From a virus, in the IMG/VR virus record IMGVR_UViG_3300009158_000035, positions 1 through 64,000 of that record: a stretch of 64,000 nucleotides of DNA; one strand, given 5' to 3'. Position numbers and translations under genes: made by a program. The notes below the pieces were generated by a model that was not told the origin of the DNA, searched no databases, and worked only from the letters and a program-made list of their open reading frames with translations. Shown here piece after piece: positions 2 through 44,103 of this stretch; the first letter of the stretch is position 1, and each line of letters begins with the position of its first letter.

Positions 2-1402
<1,401 letters not shown>

Positions 1403-1410
1403 ATATTTAA

Positions 1411-3240
<1,830 letters not shown>

Positions 3241-3241
3241 T

Positions 3242-4057
3242 ATGCCTGAGGACAACACAGACCTTATCGTACTCCGGTGGAGCCAGACGGGCAATGGTTA
3301 TGTACCATCTACACTAGTACGAAGTAAGAGTCATCTAAAGGCCAGGCACATACTTGGGCTGATGCGTAATAGGTTGGCTTCTCTCACGCCAACACAGTTA
3401 AGTGAGCTTACGCCTAACCAGATTGCCGCTATTCCTGTAGATCAAATCTCTGCTCTTCAGGGATCACAGATTAATTCGCTTACCCCTGAACAGGTGGCCG
3501 CTTTTACTGCAGCACAGCTACAAGGGCTCACGACAACACAGACGCAGTTTTTTACACCAGAACAGCTTCAAAGTTTTAGTGGTAATCAGGTCACTAGCCT
3601 TGCACCAGAACAGATAGCGGCAATTGATCCATTTGCTCTGGCGTCGATGCTTGCAGCAAACATGTCATTGTTGTCTGTAGAGGCTGTCGAGGCCATTACT
3701 CCTGAGCAGATAGCTTGGATGCCTCCAGCTACGTTCCCTTCCAGATTAACAATTCAGCAGATAGCAGCTATCGTTAGAGAGCAGCTAGCGGCTATGTCTA
3801 ACGAGCAGTCTGCTGCCCTAAGTCCAGAAAACTTGGCGGCTTTATCTCCTAGCCAGGTCTCTTTTTTATCGCCGCTACAATTAAGTGCACTTTCAGTAGA
3901 GCAAATTGCGGCACTTTCACCTGCGCAAAAAGCTGCACTAGGACCAGAACAGCTTGCTGCTCTTGAACGAGAGACATACACAAGTTCATCAACTTCGAGA
4001 AGTATAGGTAATTTTCCAAACTCTACAAACGCAGGCAGCACTACGATAGTGTTATGA
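3242..4057 (+). CDS. Protein with ~11-residue LTPEQ-type tandem repeats
   Basis: 271 aa, starting 1 nt after the stop of the preceding fibre gene. After ~50 residues (VLRWSQTGNGYVPSTL, which looks like a virion-attachment segment) there are about 17 units of roughly 11 residues with the pattern L-T/S-P-x-Q-I/L-A-A/x-L, for example LTPEQVAAF and LSPAQKAAL. The tail (TSSSTSRSIGNFPNSTNAG) is Ser/Thr/Asn-rich. Similar short Leu/Gln repeats occur in bacterial surface proteins, but I do not recognise a named family. Placed between fibres and glycosyltransferases, it is most likely a fibre or fibre-associated surface protein. Its stop overlaps the next start (ATGA). Confidence 0.6.
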   Translation: MPEDNTDLIVLRWSQTGNGYVPSTLVRSKSHLKARHILGLMRNRLASLTPTQLSELTPNQIAAIPVDQISALQGSQINSLTPEQVAAFTAAQLQGLTTTQTQFFTPEQLQSFSGNQVTSLAPEQIAAIDPFALASMLAANMSLLSVEAVEAITPEQIAWMPPATFPSRLTIQQIAAIVREQLAAMSNEQSAALSPENLAALSPSQVSFLSPLQLSALSVEQIAALSPAQKAALGPEQLAALERETYTSSSTSRSIGNFPNSTNAGSTTIVL

Positions 4058-5115
4058 TCTGTGAAGAAAAATTACTAAGTACTCTTTCTTATGCGATAGA
4101 CAATGTATCGACTGAATATGTAAAAATAGTCGATTCTTCTTTGTGGGGTAGCGGAGAGCCTGGAGAGTCTGAGTTACCTAGCGACCCTAGAATTATGTGG
4201 CTTGAGGCGGAAACCGGCGTGCACATAATCAATATAAATTCCATAAGACATTTTAACAAACAGCTGTCCTCTCTTGAGGAGCTGTTCAAGGACGCTGTAG
4301 ATGCGGGATATACAGTGAAATCTAAAACTTACAATACGCCGGAGTGTTCGAAGGCTTTTGAATTCACTAGTCTAGCCAAGACACATATAGCCTTGGTGAC
4401 AATGTTTTCTCCAAAAGCATTTAAAAGCAGCTGGAGTACTTTTGTGGAAGCTATGGATGTCCCTGAAGGGGTAACGGTGGATATTATTTTGGGAGACAAT
4501 AGCGGCAACGAGCAAGTTAGAGGACTGCACGACACACTAAACAGGAAGCTTGCTCAAAAATACCAAAAAATACACATTGTGGACCTTGGTGCGCCTTACT
4601 TTGTTAAGCCAGAAGATCATTATCTGGAGATGTACAAGCATGCACACATAGCCGTAAAATATTCAAAACTGCTTAGAGAGCCGGTTAAATATTACGACTA
4701 CATATTGAAAGTAGAGGACGATATAGAGCCTCCCAAAGACGGGCTTTTGAGCCTTTATAAAAGTATGAAAGATCTGGAGAGGCGGCGAGGTAAAGTGGCT
4801 TGCGTGGCCGGTTATTATAGACAAAAAATAGATCCAGCCATTCCATGTCTGTCTTTGCGTGCTGAACTGTGGGGAGATACGCCTAGAATAGAAGACTTGC
4901 CTGCGGAGCTTTTTCGCGTAGAGATGCAAGGAGGAGGGTTTTCATTATACAGCACTACCGCTCTAGCCGAAGCTTTACCATATAAACTTACATTTAAAAG
5001 ACCTAACGGAGCATATTATATGACAGGTTGGGATGGTACAGCAGGGGAGGTTTGGTGTAAACTAGGATGGGAACAATACTGCGACGGCAGGCTATACTGC
5101 AAACATCATTTTTAA
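4054..5115 (+). CDS. Glycosyltransferase-like protein (GT-A type)
   Basis: 353 aa, start overlapping the previous stop by 4 bp (ATGA), so the two are translationally coupled. The central segment has a Rossmann-like run (HIALVTMFSPK, VDIILGDNSG). Around residue 220 there is YILKVEDDIEPP, an acidic cluster that fits the metal/nucleotide-sugar binding site of GT-A enzymes. Later there is GGGFSLYS and a Trp/Gly-rich segment near the C-terminus (MTGWDGTAGEVW). It should transfer sugar from a nucleotide-sugar to a protein or glycan acceptor. It lies between fibre genes and a second glycosyltransferase, so a virion fibre is a plausible acceptor. The family assignment rests on motifs only. Confidence 0.6.
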   Translation: MICEEKLLSTLSYAIDNVSTEYVKIVDSSLWGSGEPGESELPSDPRIMWLEAETGVHIININSIRHFNKQLSSLEELFKDAVDAGYTVKSKTYNTPECSKAFEFTSLAKTHIALVTMFSPKAFKSSWSTFVEAMDVPEGVTVDIILGDNSGNEQVRGLHDTLNRKLAQKYQKIHIVDLGAPYFVKPEDHYLEMYKHAHIAVKYSKLLREPVKYYDYILKVEDDIEPPKDGLLSLYKSMKDLERRRGKVACVAGYYRQKIDPAIPCLSLRAELWGDTPRIEDLPAELFRVEMQGGGFSLYSTTALAEALPYKLTFKRPNGAYYMTGWDGTAGEVWCKLGWEQYCDGRLYCKHHF

Positions 5116-5119
5116 ACTT

Positions 5120-6862
5120 ATGAGCGATCTAGATGAACACAAATTACCTCAAGATTTCAGTAGCCAGGACTACTACTGGCTGAATCGTGGAAGCATTGAG
5201 CATGAGTTTGTATATTCTTCTAGTGATATGGACGCTGTGCTTAAACGGCACTATTTAGACTACGGCCAAGCTAAAAACTTAAGCTACAAGCTGGTTGTGC
5301 CTGACGATTTCAGTATATCGAAATTTATTGAACTGAATAGCGATCTACATACGCTTAAGATTCAAAACTATTTTAGTAGCCCTATAGGAGACATTAATGC
5401 AGAAGAAGCCTACATGTATTCCGCAGGACTACAAAACAGAATATACAAGCTAGAGCTGCCTGAAGATTTTTGCGTAAATGATTACAAGAAATATAATAAA
5501 GATCTAGTGGATCTTCCTGACGATTATGTCAAAGCGCACTATGTCCGGCATGCAGAAAAAGAAGGACGCGTGTATAAGCTAGATCTTCCTACAGGATTTG
5601 ATGTTACCGAGTACAAACATCTCAACCCAGACTTATTGGTTTTTACCGATCCTGAGGCTGAAAAACACTACGTGCAGCACGGCTGTAGAGAAGGAAGACA
5701 ATATAGAGATGAGTATTTTGACCGAGATTATTTTTCAAGAACATATAGCGAAGAAGGGCTAAAGGACTATAAGGATTATTTGAGCGACCCAAGGCGGTTA
5801 AAAAGTGCAAGTATTGCTGAAAAAGTAGAAAGTATTCAAGCGTGTGAACTGGACTTGCTTCTTGTAAGCCACGAAACATCTCTGTACGGCGCAACACATT
5901 ATTTATACACGCTGTACACATACATTAAGAAAAATTATCCTAACGTAAAAGTAAAAATAGCTGAAAAATACATAAACGCCGAGCTGCTAGCCAAGTACGA
6001 GCTAAATGAGCTAGACATGTATTATTATCTCAATGACTGCACACTACTGTATCATATAATTAAAAAATCGAACCCAACTAAAGTACTGGTGAACTCAACA
6101 CCTACAGCAATTAATGCAATTGCTGGGTTTTTCCCAGGCAAACTCATATACCATAGCCACGAGGTTAAAGAGCATTTTGATGTGGTTATGCCTGGAGTTA
6201 CACCAGACTATGTAGTGTCACACAGAATAGCTGATCAGTGGGCAGGCACACCAAAAGTACAACCACCATTTTTTAGTGAGGCAGTACTAAAGGCGCTCGA
6301 GCGTGCCCCTCAGTTTACAGTAGAGGTAGCTAATCGATTTGGTGTGTTGGACACATCCAAGCTAACTATAGGTATGTGTGGAAATCTTTCAGAACGGAAG
6401 AATCCTGATTTGTTTATGCAACTGGCTGAAGAGCTACCTGATTACAATTTCTTATGGGTTGGAGGGTATGATGAAATTACAAATAAAGAAATAAATAACC
6501 TGTATCATGTCAAGAACGTTGCAGAGCCTTACAGCTATTTTCAAGTTTTTGATTATTTCTCGCTAACCGCCAAAATTGACCCTTGTCCTTATGTAGTCGT
6601 GGAGGCGTTGTACTACAATATTCCGGTGTTGGTATTTAAAGAAAACATATACACTACACATAACCTAGACTCATCTTCCGAGATGTATTTTGAGCTGCCC
6701 GGAAGTATCAGCCTTGAAACGGCAAAACAAGCAATACTGTCGCTGTGTGTAAAACATAAAGATAAGTATAATGCAAAAGGACGAGAATATGTACTGGAGC
6801 ATTTTACAAAACCAACAAATCAGTACATAGCGGATGTTTTGAATAGTTCAATTAATCTGTAA
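5120..6862 (+). CDS. Glycosyltransferase family 4-like protein with N-terminal repeat domain
   Basis: 580 aa. Residues ~1-230 contain about four copies of a ~45-residue repeat (LNPDL ... HYVQHGCREGRQY), a module I recall from bacterial and phage surface-polysaccharide and glycosyltransferase proteins. Residues ~240-575 look like a GT-B enzyme. There is an N-terminal Rossmann half (LDLLLVSHETSLYGATHYL) and a nucleotide-sugar half starting near 420 (GMCGNLSERKNP). The GT4-like signature FDYFSLTAKIDPCPYVVVEAL follows near residue 480. It begins 4 nt after the preceding glycosyltransferase. Probable role: glycosylation of virion fibres or of host surface glycans. The acceptor is unknown. Confidence 0.75.
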   Translation: MSDLDEHKLPQDFSSQDYYWLNRGSIEHEFVYSSSDMDAVLKRHYLDYGQAKNLSYKLVVPDDFSISKFIELNSDLHTLKIQNYFSSPIGDINAEEAYMYSAGLQNRIYKLELPEDFCVNDYKKYNKDLVDLPDDYVKAHYVRHAEKEGRVYKLDLPTGFDVTEYKHLNPDLLVFTDPEAEKHYVQHGCREGRQYRDEYFDRDYFSRTYSEEGLKDYKDYLSDPRRLKSASIAEKVESIQACELDLLLVSHETSLYGATHYLYTLYTYIKKNYPNVKVKIAEKYINAELLAKYELNELDMYYYLNDCTLLYHIIKKSNPTKVLVNSTPTAINAIAGFFPGKLIYHSHEVKEHFDVVMPGVTPDYVVSHRIADQWAGTPKVQPPFFSEAVLKALERAPQFTVEVANRFGVLDTSKLTIGMCGNLSERKNPDLFMQLAEELPDYNFLWVGGYDEITNKEINNLYHVKNVAEPYSYFQVFDYFSLTAKIDPCPYVVVEALYYNIPVLVFKENIYTTHNLDSSSEMYFELPGSISLETAKQAILSLCVKHKDKYNAKGREYVLEHFTKPTNQYIADVLNSSINL

Positions 6863-6875
6863 GAACTTTAACACA

Positions 6876-9800
6876 ATGAACAATTTAGCAGACAAACTAA
6901 CTGTAGTAATTACAGCGAACCTGATACCTTCGCACCCAAGCATCAGCTTGATTAAGACCGTAATAGACTCGCTCGATCTATTGTCTCTGGACCTTAATAC
7001 CAAGATTGTTTTGGCTCATGATGAAATTAAGCCGGACATTAAAGCTACATTAACCAAAGCAGAGCAAAGATTTTCCGAATACTTTAAGAACCTGCATGAG
7101 TATTGTGTCAGTGAGTGTAAGTATAAAAACGTACAGATAGTTAAACGCGACGAATGGGGACATTTGACAAAGTCCGTACAGACAGGATTTTCTCATGTAA
7201 CTACAGACTATGTTTTACTCATTCAACACGACTTGCCGTTTATAGTGAACATAGACATATATGCTTTGTTGGCGATGATGATCAACAACAAAGAAGTAAA
7301 ACACCTGAGGTTTAACAGGTCTCCAAACTTACCAAAAGGTTGGGATGGAGGACAGACAGGCTACAAACCAGAAGAATATCTTGCAGCGTTTAGAGAACTA
7401 GAATTTGATGGGATCAAGGTATGTAAAACACTGGCCTGGTCTGATGAAAACCATCTAACCTCTAAAGAGTATTACAATACTGTGGTGTTCCCTGACTGTT
7501 CGGTTGAAACGTCGTATACGTACATGGAGGGAGTATTAAATCGTAAAAATCCTGATGACCCTGCACGTTACGGTACATACGTTTATGGTACGTACGGACA
7601 ACCGCAATCCACTAAGAATCTAGACGGTGCGAACACGTATTTGCAGGATTTTATATTTGACCCAGAGTACTGTCCTAGAGCTTATCCAGATTTAATAAAA
7701 TTCAATATTTCAGCTAAAGGTCTAAAGGAACTATATGTAGACCGTTATGGTTATGTAGACTGTGTAGACCCTGAGTTTGATGCGGTTTTTTACAGCAAGA
7801 GCCTAAACATAAAATTTAACGACGATAGAGCTGCTTACAAGCACTGGCTATCTTATCTAGGCAAAAGAACAGGTAGCTTTTATGCTCCAGATAAGCACAC
7901 AGCTTTAAAACTGGTACTCAAAACAAAAGACGAAGAGTTTTTATTAGAGCCTTGGCTACAGTACCACATAGCTCTTGTGGGTAACCATAACATCATAGTA
8001 ATAGACAACAACAGCACTAGTCAAAAGGTGCAGGATATCTATAAAAAATACAATGTACTTGTATATCCGTTCGACGGCTTCCACGAGCATTTGTGTAACT
8101 CTCGCAGGTTTTTAAACTTTTACGAAGACATACAAAAATGCAGTCTATTCCATGCAATTCTAGATACCGACGAGTATCTTTGTTTTTATGACTATGAAAG
8201 AGAGGTAATAGATAACTCTAAATTAGTGCCGTTCTTAAAACAGAATAAGAATAATCACACACTGACTACAAGCTGGATATTCAATAACTACTACGGGAAA
8301 GACTACGAGAATATAGTGGATGTAACTGACTTTTCTGTAACCAACCCTTGGTGGGATATTGTAAAAGGAAAAGCAATTTTCTTGAATAGTACGGAGAACA
8401 GTATGCGTACACACAACAGCATCAGCCGCGACCTTACTTATTGTCCGGAACTATTGATGTTACACCTCCATAAAACACAGATTGAAGATAGAATTAAAAG
8501 TAAGATAAATCACGTCATGTCCGAGAATCCTGAATGGAGTATCGCAGAGTTTTTTGATAAGAACGAATCTATCAAAGAGAACTGGAAGCATAACAACCGA
8601 GAAATTTCAGAGTATTACAAAAATCCTGCCGAGTATCTACTCAACCTCAGTACTCCAAAAGATCAACCTTTCTTATACACTGATGTCATTCAAGCCACTA
8701 TTGACGGAAGGTCTCCCACTACAAAGTTGAGAGGTTTTAGTTCTCCGTTTCCGAAGATATTCAATTCTTTTGTATCTGCAAAATTAAATGATCGAGTACA
8801 TACGAACAGGTTAAGTGGACTACTGGCAGAAGTATCAAAAATAAAAAATATTGAATACAGCAATATAGATGCTGCGATTCAGCAGGCGTTGAGAACAGTG
8901 AACAGTACACCTGCAGCAAAAGACGAGCGTTCATTGCTCAAGATAATACTCAAAACAAAAAATGAAGGTGCGTTACTTGATGCTTGGTTACAGTATCACG
9001 CAGCTTTGGTCGGCTGGCATAATATAGTGGTTGTAGATAATGGTAGCGACTGCCCATATACGCTGGCTGTGTATGAAAAGTACAAAGACAAGCCATATAC
9101 ACTATTTAATTTCGAAGGTAATCCCATTGTACTCCCCGACACCAAACTCAATCAAAGTTTTTATGACTTGGTGCGAGCTACCGCTAAGTTCTTGTGCTTT
9201 TTAGATACCGACGAATTTATAGCGTATTTTGATCCAGCACTAAACAGCTTCAGCTTCAACTCGTTTTTGGAGGTATTACAGAAACACGAAGGTAATTCTG
9301 CGTTGAGTGGTTTGTGGCTTAGTAATTCACCTAGATTAGAGGATCTGTTTGAGCCGAGCATCGAGAAGTTCAAGCATTTTAAATTAAATCCATACAATCT
9401 AAGCGAGTGTGTGCGTCACGGTAAAGTTGTAGTCAGTTCCAAAGCAAATGTATTCAATAGTGCTGGTGGTCCAGGAGTAAATCTTTGCCATAGTAAAGAT
9501 GTGCCCGGAGTAAAGGCACTACCAAATTTATTAATTCTTCATCTAGATAAAACAGACTTACGGAAAAGAATGACTGGCAACATGTCCATCATCAAAAAAC
9601 GTAGGCTTTCTAACTATGAGAAAATACTAACTCAGCTGTCTTTAGATGATCTGGACACTGTTGAGCTACATCTAGCTAAACTTGAACCACTACCTATGGA
9701 TGTTGCAGCTAGGTGTAAAAAAATAAATTACCATAAATTGAACGAAATTGTGGACTATCTCCAGGATCCTGTCAAATACATACAGATGAAAGCGGACTAT

Positions 9801-9944
9801 AACTCGCAGCATGTACTCGCCACAAACATCATCTCTGCAACAATTAATCAGGAAAAAGAGGTAACGTATTCTGCAGTATATAAGGGACGTAAAATAGAAA
9901 ATCTTCAAGAGCTTCGGTTCTTATGTTTACCTGCAGTAGTCTAG
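6876..9944 (+). CDS. Multidomain glycosyltransferase with duplicated GT92/GT2-like domains
   Basis: 1022 aa. The N-terminal ~270 residues form a GT2-like unit (LTVVITANLIPSHP; TTDYVLLIQHDLPF). A short repeat-type linker follows (CPRAYPDL; KHWLSYLGKRTG). Then come two copies of the same catalytic-type domain. Copy one starts near 348 (LKTKDEEFLLEPWLQYH) with DTDEYLCF near 430. Copy two starts near 694 (LKTKNEGALLDAWLQYH) with DTDEFIAY near 777. Both have the N-E/D-E...W-L-Q-Y-H...V-D-N sequence and an acidic D-x-D-E cluster as in GT92/GT2_4-type enzymes. The duplication suggests a bifunctional polymerising or sequential transferase. It follows the GT4-like gene by 13 nt. Donor and acceptor cannot be inferred. 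Confidence 0.75.
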   Translation: MNNLADKLTVVITANLIPSHPSISLIKTVIDSLDLLSLDLNTKIVLAHDEIKPDIKATLTKAEQRFSEYFKNLHEYCVSECKYKNVQIVKRDEWGHLTKSVQTGFSHVTTDYVLLIQHDLPFIVNIDIYALLAMMINNKEVKHLRFNRSPNLPKGWDGGQTGYKPEEYLAAFRELEFDGIKVCKTLAWSDENHLTSKEYYNTVVFPDCSVETSYTYMEGVLNRKNPDDPARYGTYVYGTYGQPQSTKNLDGANTYLQDFIFDPEYCPRAYPDLIKFNISAKGLKELYVDRYGYVDCVDPEFDAVFYSKSLNIKFNDDRAAYKHWLSYLGKRTGSFYAPDKHTALKLVLKTKDEEFLLEPWLQYHIALVGNHNIIVIDNNSTSQKVQDIYKKYNVLVYPFDGFHEHLCNSRRFLNFYEDIQKCSLFHAILDTDEYLCFYDYEREVIDNSKLVPFLKQNKNNHTLTTSWIFNNYYGKDYENIVDVTDFSVTNPWWDIVKGKAIFLNSTENSMRTHNSISRDLTYCPELLMLHLHKTQIEDRIKSKINHVMSENPEWSIAEFFDKNESIKENWKHNNREISEYYKNPAEYLLNLSTPKDQPFLYTDVIQATIDGRSPTTKLRGFSSPFPKIFNSFVSAKLNDRVHTNRLSGLLAEVSKIKNIEYSNIDAAIQQALRTVNSTPAAKDERSLLKIILKTKNEGALLDAWLQYHAALVGWHNIVVVDNGSDCPYTLAVYEKYKDKPYTLFNFEGNPIVLPDTKLNQSFYDLVRATAKFLCFLDTDEFIAYFDPALNSFSFNSFLEVLQKHEGNSALSGLWLSNSPRLEDLFEPSIEKFKHFKLNPYNLSECVRHGKVVVSSKANVFNSAGGPGVNLCHSKDVPGVKALPNLLILHLDKTDLRKRMTGNMSIIKKRRLSNYEKILTQLSLDDLDTVELHLAKLEPLPMDVAARCKKINYHKLNEIVDYLQDPVKYIQMKADYNSQHVLATNIISATINQEKEVTYSAVYKGRKIENLQELRFLCLPAVV

Positions 9945-9962: not shown

Positions 9963-9991
9963 TTTCCATCCAGATAGGTGTGTGCTAGAAT
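9963..9991 (+). promoter_or_regulatory. Candidate sigma70-like promoter with extended -10
   Basis: TTTCCA (9963-9968), 17 bp, then TGC-TAGAAT (TAGAAT at 9986-9991), 13 nt before the start codon of the 1287-aa fibre gene. The -35 is weak; the extended -10 carries most of the support. Confidence 0.4.
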
Positions 9992-10004
9992 ATATTAAAT
10001 AGTT

Positions 10005-13000
10005 ATGTCAAACTCTCTAAATAAACCAACAGGATATATGCTTGATGCTGCAGGTACTGCGACGCCTTCAGAGGCAGGAACAGCTGCAGTAGGAACCTCT
10101 GTCAAGTATGCACGAGAAGATCACGTGCATCCCAACACTAATGCGAATGCATACTATCTACGAGGCAACCCAATCGCGTCTATTACACCTACAGCTGGAC
10201 AGTTACTTCAATGGAACGGGACTGCTTGGGTAGCTGCTACGGTTTCTGGAACTTCTGGCACAGTTTCGACATACCCATATCCACACAATAACTATTTTGC
10301 GGCTGTTGAAATTTTGGTGAATAATTCGATACTATATACTACGTCCTCTGGTCCTACAGTAGCCGCTTCAAAGTCATTCAGAGAGTATGAGCGAGATATT
10401 GATACTAACAGTGCCGGAGAAGTAACCATTACAGAATGGTGGCTATTAGCAAATACGGGTGTAAATCAATGGACAGGCGGCGGACCCAACAACAATAAGT
10501 GGGCGTATAACGCAACGTGGTACTCATCAGAACTCGCAGCCAGGGACGCCGCTACGGCTGTTTGGTTGGCGGCCAACATAAATGTGCATCAAAATCCCTA
10601 TGGTGGCACTCATGCAAATCAATGGGCATATGGTACCACTTGGTATGACTCAGAAGCCGACGCTAATGCAGCTGTTTGGTTAGCATCAAACACAGGAATA
10701 CATCAATTTACTGAAGGAGGAACACACGACAATCAGTGGGCGTATAATCAGGTCTGGTATGCGACAGAAACACTGGCGTTAGATGCGTATTCTGTGGCTT
10801 GGCTAGCAGCAAACACAGGGATAAATCAATTTACTGGAGGAGGAACCAACAACAATAAGTGGGCCTACGGCACAAGCTGGTACACTAGTCAGACGGCTGC
10901 GCAAGATGCAGCTGCAGCAGCTTGGCTGGCGACTAATACCGGCACAAACCAATGGACTGGAGGAGGAACACACAACAACCAGTATGCTTATAATAATGCC
11001 TGGATGTCTTCTGATGCAGAAGCTAATGCTGCCGAATGGCTAGCTGCAAATACAGGCGTGCATCAATATTCTGGAGCAGGTACACATAACGGGCAGTGGG
11101 CCTACAACAATACGTGGACGGCTTCTGAGTCAAATGCATATGACTACGCATCACTCTCTTGGCTTGCCAGCAATACAGGAGTACACAAAAATATTTATTC
11201 TGTAGGGATATACGCTAATAGATGGGCGTATAACAATGAATGGTATTCTCCTGAGAACGACCCAAATAATGGCGTTCCTGCCCTTTGGCTTATGTCGAAT
11301 GTAGGGTTAAATCAATGGACGGGTGGAGGTCCAGACAATAATAAGTGGGCGTTTAATTCAAATTTCTACAATTCGTATAATTTCGCTGCGGATGCAGCTG
11401 CACTCGACTGGCTATATAATGTAAATACAGGAGTACATCAGTGGACAGGTGGAGGAAACTACAACAATCAGTGGGCTATAGGTAATACAGGTTGGTATGA
11501 TAGCGAAGCTAATGCCAATAATTCAGCTTCAGATTATTCAAATTCATGGTTATCTCAAAACAGTGGAGTAAATCAGAACCCTTGGCAAGGGGGATCATAT
11601 GCTGGTCTGTGGGCTTGGGATACCCATGGGTGGTATAACTCTCAAGGGACCGCCGCAGCTGAGGCATGGCGTGCAATTAATACCGGCACAAACCAATGGA
11701 CTGGGGGAGGAGACTACAACAATAAATGGGCATACGATAATTATGGTTGGTATAATAGTGCGGAAGAAGCAAATAATTTTGCCCAGGATAGCTGGTTAAA
11801 TGCAAATGTGGGCGTAAATCAATGGACGGGAGGAGGAAGTCACAGTCAAGAATGGGCCTGGGGCACTCACGGCTGGTTTCAGGCTGCTGCCATGGCGGTG
11901 GCCGATGCCTATAGTAATTGGACACAGTATAATGTGGGACTTAACCATTTTCCTTACGATCCGAATAATGATATGGGCTATAATGCTACATGGGCCTACA
12001 ACAGTATAGCATATATCTCAGAGTTAGAGGCTAGAGATGCCGCATCTGAGGCATGGCTAACCACTAATACAGGAGTACATCAGAATCCTTACGGCGGAAC
12101 CAATAACAATAAATGGGCATGGGATAATCATGGATGGTTTGCAGAGCAAGCCGATACATTATTGGCTTATAATGATTATCACGCTGGGTTGTGGCTGGCT
12201 GCTAATGTAGGTGTTAACCAATGGCATGGTGGGGGAACAAATAGCGAGAAATGGGCTTGGGATAATCATGGATGGTTTGGCTATATGTGGGATGCTGTAT
12301 ACGACAGGGACATTAACCAAGAAGCTGCCGCAGCTTCTTGGTTAGCGGCAAATACAGGAGTCAATAAATTTACTGGAAGTGGAACGCACCAAAACCAATG
12401 GGCCTTTAATCAGTCTTGGTACGATAGTCAAGGAGCGGCACAAGACGCTTATGCTGACGCCTGGATAGGAAGCAATAACGGTGTCAATCAATTTTTGGGC
12501 AATGGGACCTATTATACTAAATGGGGATATATGCATGATTGGTATAATTCTTGGAACGACGCCAATGCTGCGGCATGGTTAGCCGCTAATACAGGTGTGC
12601 ATGAGTGGACTGGAGGAGGAACTCACAACAACCAGTATGCTTACAATCACGATTGGTATAATAGCTTAACGGATGCACAGGATGCGTATTCTGTGGCTTG
12701 GCTAGCAGCAAACACAGGGATAAATCAATTTACTGGAGGAGGAACCAACAACAATAAGTGGGCCTATAATGATAATGGTTGGTATGCTTCTCAAGCTGCA
12801 GCTACAGAAGCAGCTAGCGCAGGAGCTACGGCTTTTTTAGATGCTAATACAGGTATACATCAATTTACTGGAGGAGGAATATATGGAGATAAATGGGCTT
12901 GGGATACTCACGGCTGGTATGATTCTGAAGATGCTGCTAGAAATGCTGCATCTGCAGCGTGGCTAACTACAAATTCAGGTGTAGCGCAAACCCCTTGGGC

Positions 13001-13868
13001 AGGAAGTGTTGCTTACGCAGGTGCGAATGGTTGGGCATGGAACAATCATGGATGGTATTATTACGAGGGACTGGCTTATGATGCAGCATCTTCGGCCTGG
13101 TTAACCAGTAATACAGGAGTACATCAGAACCCTTGGACCGGGGGTACATACGGTTCGCAGTGGGCATGGAACAATCATGGATGGTATAGCACCGAAGAAG
13201 AAGCAAACGAAGCTTACTGGCTAGCTGCAAATACAGGTGTGCATCAATATTCTGGAGCAGGTACACATAACGGAAAGTGGGCGTACTCTAATCAAGGCTG
13301 GTTCGAGAATGAAACTGATGCGAATAACTATCGCGATGATGGTTTGGCAAGCGTTTGGAAAGATACTAATCTAGGCATCAATCAATGGATAGGTGGAGGA
13401 AGCTACAACAATAAATGGGTCTGGTTCAATAATGGCTGGTACGACACAGCAAACGATGCCGCTGACGCTTACGCAAACAGTTGGATAAATGATGCTATGG
13501 GTGGAGTACGCCAGTTTCCTTCGTCCTACGGCATTCACGCTAGTCAGTGGGCTTACAACAACAACTGGATGGGTTCTGAATTGGAGGCCAGGGACAACGC
13601 GGCAAGTGACTGGTTAGCCGGTAAAAATGGCTACACAATTGAGAAAAATCCTTATGGTGGGACATATACAGAACAGTGGGCTATAGGTAATACAGGTTGG
13701 TATGGTTCAGAGGGACTTGCATATGATTCAGCATCTTCGACTTGGGCAAATAATAACTCCGGAGTAAATCAGAATCCTTGGACCGGTGGAACGTATGGTT
13801 CGCTGTGGGCGTGCGGCGGCACATTTTATTCTAGCCAGGAAGAAGCTGTTGCAGCTTGTGGAGGATAG
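10005..13868 (+). CDS. Giant fibre/adhesin with 27 Trp-Ala-Tyr-Asn repeats
   Basis: 1287 aa. Residues 1-~75 contain KYAREDHVHP, a short motif common near the N-termini of phage tail-fibre proteins, followed by LLQWNGTAWVAA, another fibre-type motif. From about residue 145 to the C-terminus I count 27 consecutive units of 36-48 residues. The pattern is W-L-x-x-N-T-G-V-x-Q-[W/F/N]-T-G-G-G-T-x-N-N-x-W-A-Y-N-x-x-W-Y-x-S-x-x-x-A-x-D-A. No separate C-terminal tip is seen: the last unit ends in ACGG. The aromatic, Asn and Gly content suggests a sugar-binding repeat solenoid, but I do not recognise the family. It has its own candidate promoter and follows the glycosyltransferases. Confidence 0.7.
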   Translation: MSNSLNKPTGYMLDAAGTATPSEAGTAAVGTSVKYAREDHVHPNTNANAYYLRGNPIASITPTAGQLLQWNGTAWVAATVSGTSGTVSTYPYPHNNYFAAVEILVNNSILYTTSSGPTVAASKSFREYERDIDTNSAGEVTITEWWLLANTGVNQWTGGGPNNNKWAYNATWYSSELAARDAATAVWLAANINVHQNPYGGTHANQWAYGTTWYDSEADANAAVWLASNTGIHQFTEGGTHDNQWAYNQVWYATETLALDAYSVAWLAANTGINQFTGGGTNNNKWAYGTSWYTSQTAAQDAAAAAWLATNTGTNQWTGGGTHNNQYAYNNAWMSSDAEANAAEWLAANTGVHQYSGAGTHNGQWAYNNTWTASESNAYDYASLSWLASNTGVHKNIYSVGIYANRWAYNNEWYSPENDPNNGVPALWLMSNVGLNQWTGGGPDNNKWAFNSNFYNSYNFAADAAALDWLYNVNTGVHQWTGGGNYNNQWAIGNTGWYDSEANANNSASDYSNSWLSQNSGVNQNPWQGGSYAGLWAWDTHGWYNSQGTAAAEAWRAINTGTNQWTGGGDYNNKWAYDNYGWYNSAEEANNFAQDSWLNANVGVNQWTGGGSHSQEWAWGTHGWFQAAAMAVADAYSNWTQYNVGLNHFPYDPNNDMGYNATWAYNSIAYISELEARDAASEAWLTTNTGVHQNPYGGTNNNKWAWDNHGWFAEQADTLLAYNDYHAGLWLAANVGVNQWHGGGTNSEKWAWDNHGWFGYMWDAVYDRDINQEAAAASWLAANTGVNKFTGSGTHQNQWAFNQSWYDSQGAAQDAYADAWIGSNNGVNQFLGNGTYYTKWGYMHDWYNSWNDANAAAWLAANTGVHEWTGGGTHNNQYAYNHDWYNSLTDAQDAYSVAWLAANTGINQFTGGGTNNNKWAYNDNGWYASQAAATEAASAGATAFLDANTGIHQFTGGGIYGDKWAWDTHGWYDSEDAARNAASAAWLTTNSGVAQTPWAGSVAYAGANGWAWNNHGWYYYEGLAYDAASSAWLTSNTGVHQNPWTGGTYGSQWAWNNHGWYSTEEEANEAYWLAANTGVHQYSGAGTHNGKWAYSNQGWFENETDANNYRDDGLASVWKDTNLGINQWIGGGSYNNKWVWFNNGWYDTANDAADAYANSWINDAMGGVRQFPSSYGIHASQWAYNNNWMGSELEARDNAASDWLAGKNGYTIEKNPYGGTYTEQWAIGNTGWYGSEGLAYDSASSTWANNNSGVNQNPWTGGTYGSLWACGGTFYSSQEEAVAACGG
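10438..13862 (+). repeat. 27 tandem ~40-codon repeats (protein level)
   Basis: Units are counted from each WL(A/T/S)xNTG start. They diverge considerably at DNA level, but some distant pairs share almost identical stretches (units 3-4 and 18-19, near 10785-10870 and 12685-12770; units 5-6 and 22-23). This indicates segmental duplication or gene conversion inside the array. Confidence 0.75.
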
Positions 13869-13933: not shown

Positions 13934-14581
13934 ATGCTAGTGTTCCCACTAAACCTAGTAAAGCTGGCTAAGTCATATGCATTAAAAAAGCTTATCGAGG
14001 CCAAGGAGCTTTCCGATAAAAACGATTATGGAGGTAAGCATGAGATTTTAGCTAGCCTCATGCAAAAATATCCGCAACAGTTCAAGGTGGACAGCACTGC
14101 AGCTGATGGTAAGTATGTAGGGCTTACACACAAACCTAGCGGGTTTAAAATACATGCCCCCAAGATGCTAATACCTATCGATGTTGAAAAACGTATGAGT
14201 AGTAAAACAGCAGCTCAGGAACGAGTTAGAGTTGTATTGCCTTATAAAGGGCAATATCTTCTTGAAAGATTGAACAATCCTCAATGGCCTACTAATATTG
14301 GTAAGGTTAGACATATCGGGGGAGGAATCGAAAAAGGCGAAACACCTATCGAGGCAGCTACCAGAGAGCTGCATGAGGAGATTGGAGCCAAAGTAAATCC
14401 CAGTGCTTTTAGATACCTAGGCAAACACGACGGGCAGCATTATCTAGAGCTTACTGATCACGATATACATCCAGGTAGCTATAAATCTACGTTCGGATCT
14501 GACCCAGTGATAACTCTAGAACATACGTCGATGCATGGACCAGACTATATGGGTCCTGCAGCACACAAACTAATCAAATGA
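13934..14581 (+). CDS. Nudix hydrolase
   Basis: 215 aa. The Nudix box G-x5-E-x7-REUxEExGU is complete at about residues 128-150 (GGIEKGE ... RELHEEIGA), so the metal-binding glutamates are present. The ~75 residues before it (KHEILASLMQKYPQQF, KPSGFKIHAP) are a separate N-terminal extension seen in phage Nudix proteins rather than in MutT. It would hydrolyse a nucleoside diphosphate linked to another group; phage members act on (d)NTPs, ADP-ribose or capped/dinucleotide substrates, and the substrate here is not determinable. Its stop overlaps the start of the next gene (ATGA). Confidence 0.85.
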   Translation: MLVFPLNLVKLAKSYALKKLIEAKELSDKNDYGGKHEILASLMQKYPQQFKVDSTAADGKYVGLTHKPSGFKIHAPKMLIPIDVEKRMSSKTAAQERVRVVLPYKGQYLLERLNNPQWPTNIGKVRHIGGGIEKGETPIEAATRELHEEIGAKVNPSAFRYLGKHDGQHYLELTDHDIHPGSYKSTFGSDPVITLEHTSMHGPDYMGPAAHKLIK

Positions 14582-37617: not shown

Positions 37618-37671
37618 CAGATCTGAATAAGCAGATTGATATTTTTTATCTCGTGCCGTACGATCACTTCT

Positions 37672-40665
37672 ATGTCTACCCAAGGTCACAAATATATACT
37701 TCAGCACGGTAAGCTGACCAAAGTCCCAGCATCTACAAAGGCTAAGTACAGAATTCCTGATCCTTCAGAGTTTTTCAGTCCTGTTACAAATCTAATCCCT
37801 GGGCTCAGCTCTGTGTCGGGTTCCCGTGTACTAATTGGCGACAAATCTTCATTGCAGGCCATGACTCTTGTGAACAGGGAGGCTCCACTTGTTCAGTCTT
37901 CTGCCAAAGGAAGCAAGCAGAGCTTCAACGAATCTTTCGGTAAGCTGGTCAGCCTTTCTGCCAAAACAACAGGTACAGTACATCACATTAGTGACGATTC
38001 GCTGATAATTAAGGATGCTGACGGAAAAGAGCATCATCACGATCTCTACAGTAACTACATTATTGGCAGAGAGAGTTATCTCCACCATACACCGACAGTA
38101 AAAGTAGGAGATAAGGTAAAGACAGGACAGTTGCTGGCTACTTCAAACTATTCAGACCACAAAGGTTCTTTAAGTCTTGGAATGAACCTCAAAACGGCGA
38201 TTATGCCTTTCAGATCTTTAAACTTTGAAGATTCTCTGGCAATTTCCGAATCTGCAGCAAAAAAGCTAGAGGGAGAGCAGTTGATACCTGTGAGAATGGA
38301 GGTTGCCCGTGGAGTGATTGTCGACAAGGATAAGTATGTATCACTGTTCCCAAACAAGTACTATAATGATCAGCTGGTCAGCGTAGATTCGGCAGGTGTA
38401 GCCAAAAAAGGAACTATTTTAAAGCACGGAGACCCTGTCATTCTGGCTTTTCAGCCAAAGACACTTAAATCGGTAGATATCCAGCTAGGTAAGCTGGCAA
38501 AGGTAATTCGTAATGCATTTTCGGATGTATCCATCCCCTGGGAGTATGAATATGATGGAGAGGTAACGGATGTATCTAACTCAGGTAAGCTGATTGCTGT
38601 TACTGTTAAAACAAAAAGACCGATGAGCTTCGGAGATAAGCTTAATATGCCTTTCGGTGCAAAAGGTGTCGTACATATCATTCCAGATACTCACATGCCT
38701 CAAGGAGAGGACGGTAAGCCCATAGATGTAATGCTTAATTCGATGAGTGTTACATCTCGTGTAGCTCCAGGATTGGTTAACACTATCGGACTAGGCAAAC
38801 TCGCTCAAAAGCTAGGCAAACCTCTTAAGATGACAGGGTTCACAGAAGGTTCAGCCGTACAGAAAGTCATAGATATTCTCGATAAGCACGGAGTCAAAGA
38901 TACAGAAAAACTCTATGACCCTCAATCAGGTAAGCATATCGATGTTTTGACAGGCCCTTTATATTTTAACCGGCTACATCATATAGCAGAAGACAAAGTA
39001 TCTACGAGGTCTGCAGCCACTACGTACGATATTAATATGCAGCCGAGCAAGGCAGGCTCTCACGAAAAAGCTAAGCGTGTCGGTAATCTAGCTACCACAG
39101 TGGCATTATCTAATGATGCTACAGCTGTGCTACGAGATATTGCCACAGTACGGGCTACAAAGAATGACGAGTATTGGACTGCTTTAAAACTAGGTCAGCC
39201 TCCTCCTCCCCCTAAAGTGCCGTTTATCTTTGGAAAATTTATAGGTCACCTTAAAGGGGCAGGTGTAAATGTGCAGCAAGAAGGTTCTAAATTCCATATT
39301 CTACCTCAGACAGACAAAGACATTGTAGCTATGTCTCGAGGAGAAATTAAAGAACCTCTCAGCTATAAAATCAAAAAAGATGAGCTAGTTCCAGAAGACA
39401 ACGGACTATTTGACCCTACCCTTGTAGGTATTCATGGCGACCATTACAATCATGTGGCATTACACCATAGGATCCCAAATCCTATGGTTGAAGATCATTT
39501 GCGTAAATTACTTAACATGACAAAAGTCGCTTTCGAGGAAGCTATTGCCTCAGGCAAACTTGAGAAAGAAATTAAACGTATAGATATCGATCATAAGATT
39601 ACAGAGCTTAAGAATTTGGTAAAATCTAAACGCAAGACAGGGAGAGACAACGCACTTAAAAGTCTGAGCTTCCTTACAATGCTTAAGAGCAATAATCTTA
39701 AGCTAGATGACATACTGTTGTCTAACATCCCGGTCATTCCTGCCCAATATCGCCCTGTCATGGTTCAGGGAGATCAGGCATTAACTGCAGATGTTAATGA
39801 GCTGTATAAAGATCTTATGCTTGTTAACAACTCGCTAGGACAGGCAAAAGACAATCCAGACACTGATCCGGAGCATTTACACACCGCAAGAAAACAAATC
39901 TATAACGGGCTTAAGGCTGTGTATGGTCTCGGCGGTCCCATCAAACAGAAAAGTATTGAGAAAAAATATAAAGGGTTGCTTGCTTCGGCTCTAGGCCTTC
40001 AAGGCGGATCAGCGAAAGAGTCTATGTTCCAGGCGAAGGTTGTTAACAAACCTATTGACCTGGTAGGTAGAGCTGTATTGTTACCTGACGCTAAACTAGA
40101 TCTTAATCAGGCAAGTATTCCTCAGCCGCTGGCCTGGAATATCTTTGGACCGTTCATTATTCGTCGACTTGTGCGCCAAGGAGTACCTGCCACAAAAGCT
40201 AGAGAATATCTCGAGAAAAAGCATCCGTTAGCCTTGACTGCTCTACATCTAGAGATGGAAGATCGGCCGGGTATCGTGACTAGAGATCCACAGCTATCAA
40301 AATACAATTTTCAGGGAATGTACCTGAAGATGAACCCAGATCCCAAGGACTTCTCTATAAAGATGAGTCCACTAGTGTTTAAAGGTTATGGAGCAGACTC
40401 TGACGGAGACCAGCTCAATGTGCAGCTCCCGGCTACGGATGAAGCCAAGGAGGAAATTAAAGAGAAATTGCTGCCCGAGAAAAACCTAATCTATCACAGG
40501 ACTTTTGGTCCGATGTATACCCCATCAAACGAATCTGCGACCGGATTGTTTGCAGCTAGTTTCGAAGACAAGAAAAATACTCCCAAGAAATATTCTTCGG
40601 CTCAAGAAGTTGTGAAAGATTTTTTAGCGGGAAAGCTTGATGTTGGCGATCGGGTGGATGTATAA
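37672..40665 (+). CDS. RNA polymerase beta (C-terminal part) - beta' (N-terminal part) fusion
   Basis: 997 aa from the ATG at 37672; an in-frame TTG 36 nt earlier is less likely. Beta part: NLIPGLSSVSGSRVLIG near the start, MNLKTAIMPFRSLNFEDSLA (~175), GDKLNMPFGAKGVVHIIPD (~321) and RLHHIAEDKVSTRS (~433). Beta' part: MSRGEIKEPLSYKIKK ... NGLFDPTLVG (~553), VIPAQYRPV (~688), GRAVLLPDAKL (~798) and the catalytic loop GADSDGDQLNV (~906) with the three Mg-binding aspartates of DxDGD. The N-terminal beta' zinc domain, expected right after FDPTLVG, is absent. The remaining pieces are at 30147, 23353 and 42253. It ends just after LIYHRTFGPMYTPSNES, the point where beta' resumes in the 42253 gene. 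Confidence 0.92.
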   Translation: MSTQGHKYILQHGKLTKVPASTKAKYRIPDPSEFFSPVTNLIPGLSSVSGSRVLIGDKSSLQAMTLVNREAPLVQSSAKGSKQSFNESFGKLVSLSAKTTGTVHHISDDSLIIKDADGKEHHHDLYSNYIIGRESYLHHTPTVKVGDKVKTGQLLATSNYSDHKGSLSLGMNLKTAIMPFRSLNFEDSLAISESAAKKLEGEQLIPVRMEVARGVIVDKDKYVSLFPNKYYNDQLVSVDSAGVAKKGTILKHGDPVILAFQPKTLKSVDIQLGKLAKVIRNAFSDVSIPWEYEYDGEVTDVSNSGKLIAVTVKTKRPMSFGDKLNMPFGAKGVVHIIPDTHMPQGEDGKPIDVMLNSMSVTSRVAPGLVNTIGLGKLAQKLGKPLKMTGFTEGSAVQKVIDILDKHGVKDTEKLYDPQSGKHIDVLTGPLYFNRLHHIAEDKVSTRSAATTYDINMQPSKAGSHEKAKRVGNLATTVALSNDATAVLRDIATVRATKNDEYWTALKLGQPPPPPKVPFIFGKFIGHLKGAGVNVQQEGSKFHILPQTDKDIVAMSRGEIKEPLSYKIKKDELVPEDNGLFDPTLVGIHGDHYNHVALHHRIPNPMVEDHLRKLLNMTKVAFEEAIASGKLEKEIKRIDIDHKITELKNLVKSKRKTGRDNALKSLSFLTMLKSNNLKLDDILLSNIPVIPAQYRPVMVQGDQALTADVNELYKDLMLVNNSLGQAKDNPDTDPEHLHTARKQIYNGLKAVYGLGGPIKQKSIEKKYKGLLASALGLQGGSAKESMFQAKVVNKPIDLVGRAVLLPDAKLDLNQASIPQPLAWNIFGPFIIRRLVRQGVPATKAREYLEKKHPLALTALHLEMEDRPGIVTRDPQLSKYNFQGMYLKMNPDPKDFSIKMSPLVFKGYGADSDGDQLNVQLPATDEAKEEIKEKLLPEKNLIYHRTFGPMYTPSNESATGLFAASFEDKKNTPKKYSSAQEVVKDFLAGKLDVGDRVDV

Positions 40666-41824: not shown

Positions 41825-42253
41825 ATGCCGGACTTTACAAAACTAGCATCCTACTTGGATTCCTTCGCTCGCGAGGATGAAAATTATGATCTTGCCTGTT
41901 TTATCAAATCAAAGATAGCTGAGGATTTTTCAGATCCCCGAACAATCAATAACTCCGAGGATGAGGAGCTTGGTGATAACGATATTACTATGGCTACCCC
42001 CGACCAACAAGCTGAGTCTAATACTGAGGGAGAATTGATGGGTGATGCGTTTAAGGAATTTGATGCACTGAATAAGATGCAGAAAGAAAAAGAAGAAATA
42101 GTCCTTCCTAACAAACAACAGGACACTAAGAAACTTTCTCTAGATGCCGCAGACTCTAAAGACTTTCCTGGAGTGGGCCAGGTGCATAACCAGGTAAGTA
42201 AGACTGCTCAAGTATCGTTGTTTGATGTACTTCAAAACCGGCTTAAAAGATAA
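41825..42253 (+). CDS. Acidic hypothetical protein
   Basis: 142 aa. The helical N-terminus (FTKLASYLDSFAREDENYDLA) resembles the start of other virion-like proteins here. An acidic, probably disordered middle and a basic C-terminus (VSKTAQVSLFDVLQNRLKR) follow. The stop and the next start share bases (TAATG), so it is coupled to the beta' C-terminal gene. It might be a small partner of the polymerase; this is inferred from position only. Confidence 0.55.
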   Translation: MPDFTKLASYLDSFAREDENYDLACFIKSKIAEDFSDPRTINNSEDEELGDNDITMATPDQQAESNTEGELMGDAFKEFDALNKMQKEKEEIVLPNKQQDTKKLSLDAADSKDFPGVGQVHNQVSKTAQVSLFDVLQNRLKR

Positions 42254-44103
42254 TGGCAACCACGACTGTTGGAAGAGTCTTATTGAAATTCTTCATACCT
42301 CATCAATTTCATGAGCTTGTTGATGGGGCTATGCTTGACGGGAAAGGCATATCCAAGTTGTTTGCCGAGCTGGCTGAAAAGGCTCCAAACGAATACAGTA
42401 AGATAGCATCTGATCTGACAAGGCTAGGTTTTGAAATATCCACCAGACAGGGTACATCTATAACGCTCAAGGATCTGATATCCCCGATAGACAAGAACAA
42501 GCTATGGGATAATTTTGAGAAATTTAAAACCACAGTAGAATCTTCCAACGATTCTCAGGCTCTAAAAGATAAGCAGATTTTTGATCATTACAATAACATG
42601 ATGTCTAGTATTGAACGAGACATCCTGGATAAAGGACTCAAGGATAATAAATCTTTGGCTAAGATTATTCTGGCAGGTTCCCGAGGCTCCCCTGCACAGT
42701 ATAGGGGCACTATAGCTACGCAAGGTATAGTTGTCGATGCGTCAGGTAAGCCCAAGATGGATATACCTATCAAGAGCTCTTTCGCAGAAGGCCTAACTCT
42801 TCCTGAATATTTGACTACAGCCTACGGTACTAGATCTGGAGAGGTACTGAAGAAAATTTCGGTAGCTCAAGGAGGTTACGGATCAAAACAGTTTGCTAGA
42901 GCGCTAATGCCTTTGCAGATCGTTGAAGCTGACTGCGAAACTTTGAACGGTATAGATATCCCTATAAGTGATCGTGAGTCTATAGGAGCGTATCTAGCCA
43001 AAACTGTGGGCGGACACAACCGTAACAATGAGGTTACCGCAAAGATGTTGGCAGACCTTAAAAACAAAGGAGTGTCCCACATATTCATACGTTCTCCGAT
43101 GACGTGTCAGTCAAATAAAAAGCATCATTCCGGCGGATTATGTCAGATGTGTGTAGGTAAGCGTGAAAAGGGTATGGCTGCGATGGACAGTTATATAGGT
43201 CTAGTTGCAGGTACGGCTGTGGCAGAACCTCTCACAGAAAGCGCCATGAAAGCTAGGCATTCTGGAGGGGCAGCAACCAGTCTAGGGGGTCAGCAGGGCT
43301 TTAAGCTTATTAATCAGCTTGCGAATGTACCCAAAACATTCATAGGTAGAGCGCCTCTAGCTCAGGAAGATGGTTTTGTCACCAAGCTTGCGCCAGCAGC
43401 TGCAGGTGGACATTTTATTTCGGTAAACGACCATGAACATTACATAGGTATAGATCAAACTCCTACTGTGAAACTGGGTGACCGTGTAGAGCAAGGACAA
43501 GTACTCAGTTCTGGTCTAGTAGACCCTAGAGAAGTGGTAAAGTACCGTGGAATTGGTGATGGAAGGAAGTATTATATGGAGGCTATGAAGAAAGCTTTCG
43601 ACGATAGCAAACTTCCAGTCAACAGGCGTAATTTTGAATTGATAGCTAAGGCAGCTATCGATCATGTAAAGATCACCGACCCTGAAGGAATGGGTGACTA
43701 TCTCCCCGACCAGGTAGTATCCTATTCAGCGATAGAAAAAGACTATGTACCTAGACCTGCGGCAAAGATGCTTAGGCTTGATCTGGCATATGGTAAATAT
43801 CTAGAAAAGCCCGAACTTCACTACACTATAGGTACAAAGGTCACCTCAGCCGTCATCTCGGAGCTTAAAAAGCATAATATCGAAGCTGTGCTTGTTCATG
43901 ACGAGCATCCTAATTTTGAGCCTGTGATGGTGCGTCTTGTAGATATTCCAGAGCACCATGACGATTGGATGCATGTTTTAAACAGCACCAATCTAGCCAA
44001 ACGTTTCGTTAATATGGTTAATAAAGGCGCTACATCAGACTTAAAAGGCGCCAGTCCCATTCCAGGACTAGCGTATGGTGTAGGTTTTGGAGAAAAGAGT
44101 TAA
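42253..44103 (+). CDS. RNA polymerase beta' subunit, C-terminal fragment
   Basis: 616 aa. It opens with TTVGRVLLKFFIP, matching the beta' TTxGRxxF segment just after the active-site domain. AGSRGSPAQYRG (~140) and SFAEGLTLPEYL (~178) are the bridge-helix region. The zinc site has DCETLNGI (Cys ~227) and C-x11-C-x2-C (~286, 298, 301), with a longer first loop than bacterial beta'. The trigger loop is PLTESAMKARHSGGAA (~327-342) with the conserved His. The C-terminal part (MVNKGATSDLKGASPIPGLAYGVG) corresponds to the end of beta'. With the three other fragments it would complete a catalytic core. No sigma or alpha is encoded nearby. Confidence 0.9.
   Translation: MATTTVGRVLLKFFIPHQFHELVDGAMLDGKGISKLFAELAEKAPNEYSKIASDLTRLGFEISTRQGTSITLKDLISPIDKNKLWDNFEKFKTTVESSNDSQALKDKQIFDHYNNMMSSIERDILDKGLKDNKSLAKIILAGSRGSPAQYRGTIATQGIVVDASGKPKMDIPIKSSFAEGLTLPEYLTTAYGTRSGEVLKKISVAQGGYGSKQFARALMPLQIVEADCETLNGIDIPISDRESIGAYLAKTVGGHNRNNEVTAKMLADLKNKGVSHIFIRSPMTCQSNKKHHSGGLCQMCVGKREKGMAAMDSYIGLVAGTAVAEPLTESAMKARHSGGAATSLGGQQGFKLINQLANVPKTFIGRAPLAQEDGFVTKLAPAAAGGHFISVNDHEHYIGIDQTPTVKLGDRVEQGQVLSSGLVDPREVVKYRGIGDGRKYYMEAMKKAFDDSKLPVNRRNFELIAKAAIDHVKITDPEGMGDYLPDQVVSYSAIEKDYVPRPAAKMLRLDLAYGKYLEKPELHYTIGTKVTSAVISELKKHNIEAVLVHDEHPNFEPVMVRLVDIPEHHDDWMHVLNSTNLAKRFVNMVNKGATSDLKGASPIPGLAYGVGFGEKS

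Follow-up and report, generated by a model that had tools for sequence, protein, structure and literature searches.

A giant phage protein built of 27 tandem units of a new repeat family, a candidate tail fibre or adhesin

Phage adhesins determine which bacteria can be infected, and most of them are unrecognisable by sequence. Two described kinds of protein encoded in the same gene cluster resemble the one reported here. Collagen-like phage tail fibres (PF01391; phrog_5073) are likewise long and repetitive, and ALTTAQ-repeat proteins (PF20080) are likewise built of short tandem repeats. The giant protein of the present locus differs from both: where the collagen-like fibres form a Gly-X-Y triple helix, its unit is a predicted beta/alpha repeat, and its array is unrelated in sequence to ALTTAQ repeats and contains no ALTTAQ match. 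The window analysed comprises the first 64,000 nucleotides of the IMG/VR record IMGVR_UViG_3300009158_000035 (167,754 bp). The record derives from a tailed phage and contains a terminase and a portal; a large protein homologous to a structural protein of Salmonella phage Arash is read as the tail sheath. Pieces of a multisubunit RNA-polymerase beta subunit are present in the window at 37636–40665 and 42253–44103; such polymerase genes are usually linked to jumbo phages.

Within the giant protein, tandem units fill residues 146 to 1284, with unit starts from residue 146 to residue 1247 at a spacing of 38–49 residues, mostly 41–42 (Table 1). A profile derived from the readily recognised units gives all 27 a domain E-value of 3e-11 or lower, and HMMER, run independently on the entire record, recovers these 27 units only. 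The autocorrelation of the protein peaks at lag 41 (0.161, against shuffle maxima that average 0.099 and reach at most 0.112). The initial annotation had reported 27 repeats at 10005–13868, and both the count and the coordinates are borne out by the open reading frame and the two HMM searches; its WLxxNTGVxQ... motif was essentially right, in agreement with the refined consensus WLaaNtGVnQy.g.GtynGqWAYNsteYsSeadAqaA, and the REDHVHP-type N-terminus it described is present as AREDHVHP at residues 36–43. The N-terminal region (residues 1–145) has no PHROG or Pfam match and yields weak tblastn matches only (E 0.2–0.4). The sequence TATATTAAATA lies at 9991–10001, 2 nt 5' of the ATG, where a clear ribosome-binding site is absent. 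It is a possible phage-specific promoter, but the window shows no enrichment of the motif (5 sites versus 2.25 expected).

Table 1. Features of the giant repeat gene and its neighbours in the window
Feature	Coordinates	Strand	Basis or remarks
Two collagen-like fibre genes, upstream in cluster	32..3240	+	Pfam Collagen E 3.5e-20 and 9e-32; second also PHROG tail fibre E 1.1e-66
ALTTAQ-repeat protein, upstream in cluster	3242..4057	+	PF20080 E 2.4e-23
DxD-containing glycosyltransferase-like protein	4054-5115		By eye (DxD motif, context)
Glycosyltransferase-family genes	5120-6862 and 6876-9944		Pfam
Giant repeat protein gene	10005..13868	+	ORF, ATG start; 1,287 aa, 141 kDa, pI 4.47
Non-repeat N-terminal region, aa 1-145	10005..10439	+	Contains AREDHVHP and GQLLQWNGTAWV
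27-unit array, ~41 aa each, predicted beta - beta-hairpin - alpha	10440..13856	+	Profile/HMMER searches; AlphaFold2 on aa 210-355
86-nt exact repeat, copy 1, spans start of unit 4	10782..10867	+	
86-nt exact repeat, copy 2, spans start of unit 19	12681..12766	+	
NUDIX gene directly downstream	13934..14581	+	Syntenic in L002, L003 and L004

Searches of Pfam, PHROGs, NCBIfam and PDB sequences gave no match to the unit above cut-off, to described lectin families or to any other, and no description of the repeat was found in the literature. Comparison of the giant protein and one short relative with 50,697 annotated phages by tblastn returned no match. A query with the unit consensus peptide likewise had no hits. 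At the level of structure, Foldseek against PDB and BFVD found nothing at E ≤ 0.001 for three units of the window protein (best PDB E 4.0), and nothing at this threshold for a short relative (best PDB E 0.76, an ice-binding beta-helix protein). Two matches to known families were rejected, Sigma70_r2 to the giant protein (E 0.042) as chance and ThreeFoil/beta-trefoil (E 1.7). The initial annotation had described the repeat family as unknown and had proposed Foldseek on the units as a check; the sequence and structure searches both agree with it, and the family appears to be new, being absent from the current libraries searched. A DNA pattern for the unit matched 23 stretches in 84,980 prokaryote species genomes. 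No array of units is present in any of them, the best E-value being 0.004 and no unit falling below 1e-3, and they were therefore treated as chance matches. Within the sensitivity of the DNA pattern used, the unit is restricted to phages.

AlphaFold2 was applied to two inputs with independent alignments. The first comprised three units of the window protein (residues 210–355) alongside 10 further segments taken from the same protein and from its giant relative L002, and the second the short protein L021 with 17 orthologs. The three units are predicted with a pLDDT of 91.1 and a pTM of 0.75, and L021 with a pLDDT of 91.3, all four of its units having the same order of elements as those of the window protein. 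In each predicted unit, a short strand (HQF) is followed by a glycine loop, then by a two-strand hairpin (QWAY / WY) and finally by a ~15-residue helix, which terminates in the WL of the next unit; in L021 the units are preceded by a strand-rich, beta-helix-like N-terminus. The initial annotation had envisaged a solenoid, and AlphaFold2 predicts an ordered array; the pTM of the three-unit model suggests that the units pack against each other in a defined way rather than as loose beads. Across 128 distinct units from giant and short proteins, W1, N5, G7, Q10, G15, W21, A22, Y28, A34 and A37 are near-fixed or strongly preferred, and W1, N5, G7, W21, A22 and Y28 are near-invariant in all members. 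The variable positions (12–14, 16–19, 25–27, 29, 31–33 and 35) fall in the loops and hairpin turn and on the outer face of the helix of the predicted unit. The giant protein contains 7.8% W, 12.7% N, 11.2% G and 15.2% A, and judging from the conserved positions much of the aromatic content of the unit looks structural. Because the six near-invariant residues fit a structural core, the argument from Trp, Asn and Gly to glycan binding is weak, and composition alone would be poor evidence for it.

The predicted element order also bears on whether the unit could belong, as a remote relative, to a known beta-beta-beta-alpha family, such as AP2/Arm-DNA-binding, DUF1508/YegP or LPD22, with a role in intracellular nucleic-acid or other binding. 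We consider this highly improbable. The order of secondary structure is alike, and an artificial unit consensus scores against LPD22, a domain termed potentially enzymatic (PMC5512222), at E 6e-4. However, this score (20.5 bits) lies below the cut-off of 28.6 bits and is obtained with the artificial consensus only; real unit proteins reach at best E 0.38–0.46 (11.2–11.5 bits), and identity with LPD22 was rejected. No AP2, Arm-DNA-binding or DUF1508 match appears in Pfam scans or in unit scans up to E 10, the array is strongly acidic (92 D+E versus 25 K+R), and the Foldseek searches are negative.

Relatives carrying the unit were collected from IMG/VR with a degenerate DNA pattern for WLxxNTG[VIM][HN]Q, an alignment search and an iterated profile. 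The set, with the window protein included, numbers 26 distinct proteins, of which two are giants and 24 are short; two overlapping copies of the window gene (L060 and L061) are not counted. The second giant, L002, lacks its 5' end and is followed by the same NUDIX-unknown-PhoH gene order as in the window. The short proteins (~220–360 residues) place their units after a beta-helix-like N-terminus, which scores below cut-off against Bactofilin (PF04519, E 0.0016–0.2), has weak Foldseek matches to bactofilin and ice-binding beta-helices, and was not found in the window protein. Compared between these genomes, unit number is variable, as the initial annotation had expected: 27 units in the window protein, at least 16 in L002 and 3–5 in the short relatives. 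In one relative (L033, 1–978, minus strand) the array is followed by a CBM5/12-like module (PF02839, E 1.7e-5, 25.1 bits versus a cut-off of 26.2). This module, which is separate from the units, is the sole hint of sugar binding. Seven other phage proteins (L099, L100, L101, L104, L106, L107 and L108) consist almost wholly of a beta-helix-like GTVTGNATFNDxSxN repeat without Trp units; L106 has a clear Bactofilin score (9e-13), and several of the seven terminate in GINGSSILG[IV][IV].

Tail-fibre-type genes flank the genes for the short proteins, which belong to a podovirus-like lineage and, in one instance, to a P2-like cluster for a contractile tail. A conserved fibre-type gene (PHROG tail protein, 2.9e-14) lies just upstream in 29 of 31 records, with 81–100% amino acid identity, or 54% in the P2-like contig, and the other two records start at most 56 nt from the gene; a related fibre gene lies just downstream, again in 29 of 31. 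The P2-like cassette (L024/L083) belongs to a cluster of collar fibre, tail fibre, sheath and baseplate genes; in L024 the unit gene is directly 5' of the tail collar fibre gene (phrog_523, 1.6e-43), and the sheath gene scores 1e-120. The unit occurs in two or more unrelated tail types, and a tail-fibre context for it is supported, by analogy, through these relatives.

The giant gene is likewise located among tail-fibre genes, with collagen-like fibre genes upstream. Three glycosyltransferase-like genes (4054–9944) separate it from the ALTTAQ gene, such that its immediate upstream neighbours are glycosyltransferase-like and not fibre genes; NUDIX and PhoH genes follow downstream. This arrangement raises the possibility that the three adjacent proteins glycosylate the array, which would then serve as a scaffold for a sugar coat on the virion, and the array is indeed rich in Asn, Ser and Thr. 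We regard this as improbable. Inspection of the ORFs surrounding the short relatives (by eye, partly with PHROGs) revealed no recognisable glycosyltransferase, none was seen in the homologous cluster of L003, and the enzymes could equally modify host polysaccharide. Ahead of the NUDIX gene, the related phages L003 and L004 both have a collagen-like gene and a gene for a giant protein that combines ALTTAQ with other repeats. The L003 protein (1653–8591) has 2,312 residues, with 47 ALTTAQ matches followed by a second, unannotated repeat of the type YYxGGxxxTGxNxxGTG-WY, and that of L004 (3–1523) is near-identical with more copies of this second repeat. The NUDIX-adjacent slot therefore hosts alternative giant repeat proteins. 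The 167,754 bp record itself begins within a collagen-like gene and ends within a Pro/Ala/Glu repeat gene, EVTPEPVAAPAPAA (L067:3494-3754); its assembly therefore probably breaks at repeats.

Comparisons within and between arrays provide evidence that the units are copied and exchanged. First, the two exact 86-nt copies in the window gene are 1.9 kb apart, although the median nucleotide identity between units is 64%, and L002 contains an exact internal repeat of 125 nt. The near-identity of distant units claimed in the initial annotation hence holds at the DNA level, and the unit copying that it had proposed is recent. Between the window and L002 arrays, no exact match of at least 24 nt remains, and the flanking genes are 72–73% identical. 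Second, the short-protein genes of two phages, L018 (IMGVR_UViG_3300042470_000503) and L031 (3300043803_000386), are 99.8% identical over the 1,000 nt upstream, 100% over the first 240 nt of the gene, 65% in the units and 93% over the next 450 nt; identity falls ~240–360 nt into the gene and returns within the last unit. Third, units 2–4 of L018 match units 1–3 of L007 at 87–100%, its unit 1 best matches L072, and units 3–4 of L031 match units 3–4 of L089. Between phages the units form mosaics, in which some matches are shifted in position, and together with the exact internal repeats this implies that the array evolves by unit copying and exchange. Among the short relatives, units share 48–89% nucleotide identity compared with 74–99.8% upstream, and the unit region is by far the most variable part of the tail-fibre cassettes. 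A unit region more variable than the neighbouring structural genes, a trait of the recognition part of phage receptor-binding proteins, is thus found in the short relatives, to which this comparison applies, the window phage having one giant relative that is truncated at its 5' end.

On a different reading of the same data, the array would act as a mechanical spacer or decorate the virion: unit number would set its reach, ligand specificity would be slight, and the exchange of units would be a side effect of the repetitive DNA. One chain holds 27 units, unit number varies freely, the neighbouring collagen-like and ALTTAQ genes likewise encode repetitive rods, and L003 and L004 fill the slot with another giant repeat protein, as though a long rod of any kind would suffice. 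Against this, the short relatives with 3–5 units show wholesale replacement of the unit region while the flanking fibre genes remain ~80–100% identical. Such replacement beside conserved flanks is typical of a recognition tip and not of a spacer, and we consider the spacer reading unlikely. The unit array is probably a swappable surface-recognition module.

On balance we favour, with some reserve, the reading that the giant protein is a tail fibre or adhesin whose stacked units, shuffled by recombination, would serve host-surface recognition. Its short N-terminal region would attach it to the virion, and the remainder is predicted to form 27 stacked beta-betabeta-alpha repeats of ~41 residues, each with a core of near-invariant Trp, Tyr, Gly and Asn. 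Judging by the conservation pattern, the variable parts, namely the loops, the turn of the hairpin and the outer face of the helix, may provide the surface through which the array would contact host-surface molecules; a surface polysaccharide is a plausible ligand. Recombination that copies, deletes or exchanges whole units could let phages alter both the length and the specificity of the array. The copying and exchange are recorded in the DNA, and it is their effect on host recognition that we infer. More speculatively, the new beta-betabeta-alpha fold might act as a recognition 'alphabet', each unit contributing its own contact surface and specificity changing through the gain, loss or swap of units, from 3 in small phages to 27 in a large one; we put this forward only as a tentative possibility. 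Transfer of function from the short proteins could be wrong, because the window protein is without their beta-helix-like N-terminus. The family adds an adhesin candidate that is absent from libraries, with a confident predicted fold that has no match among solved structures. As near-identical phages differ only in their units, the role of the units in host choice becomes directly testable, and the L018/L031 pair represents a natural experiment on host recognition.

Beyond the collagen-like fibres and the ALTTAQ-repeat proteins, three further kinds of described protein invite comparison. Similar to the unit, CBM5/12 modules (PF02839) are rich in Trp, Tyr and Gly, and L033 has a CBM5/12-like module right after its units; however, the unit itself does not match PF02839, Pfam finds no such module in the window protein, and the element order differs. 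Bactofilin-like beta-helices (PF04519) resemble the N-termini of the short relatives but were not found in the window protein. The likeness to AP2/Arm-DNA-binding and DUF1508 domains lies in the order of strands and helix and in an aromatic/Ser-Thr cap before an Ala-rich helix, whereas there is no sequence or structure match and the units form an acidic, tandem array. The units define a new repeat family in what is probably a known kind of protein, the phage fibre or adhesin.
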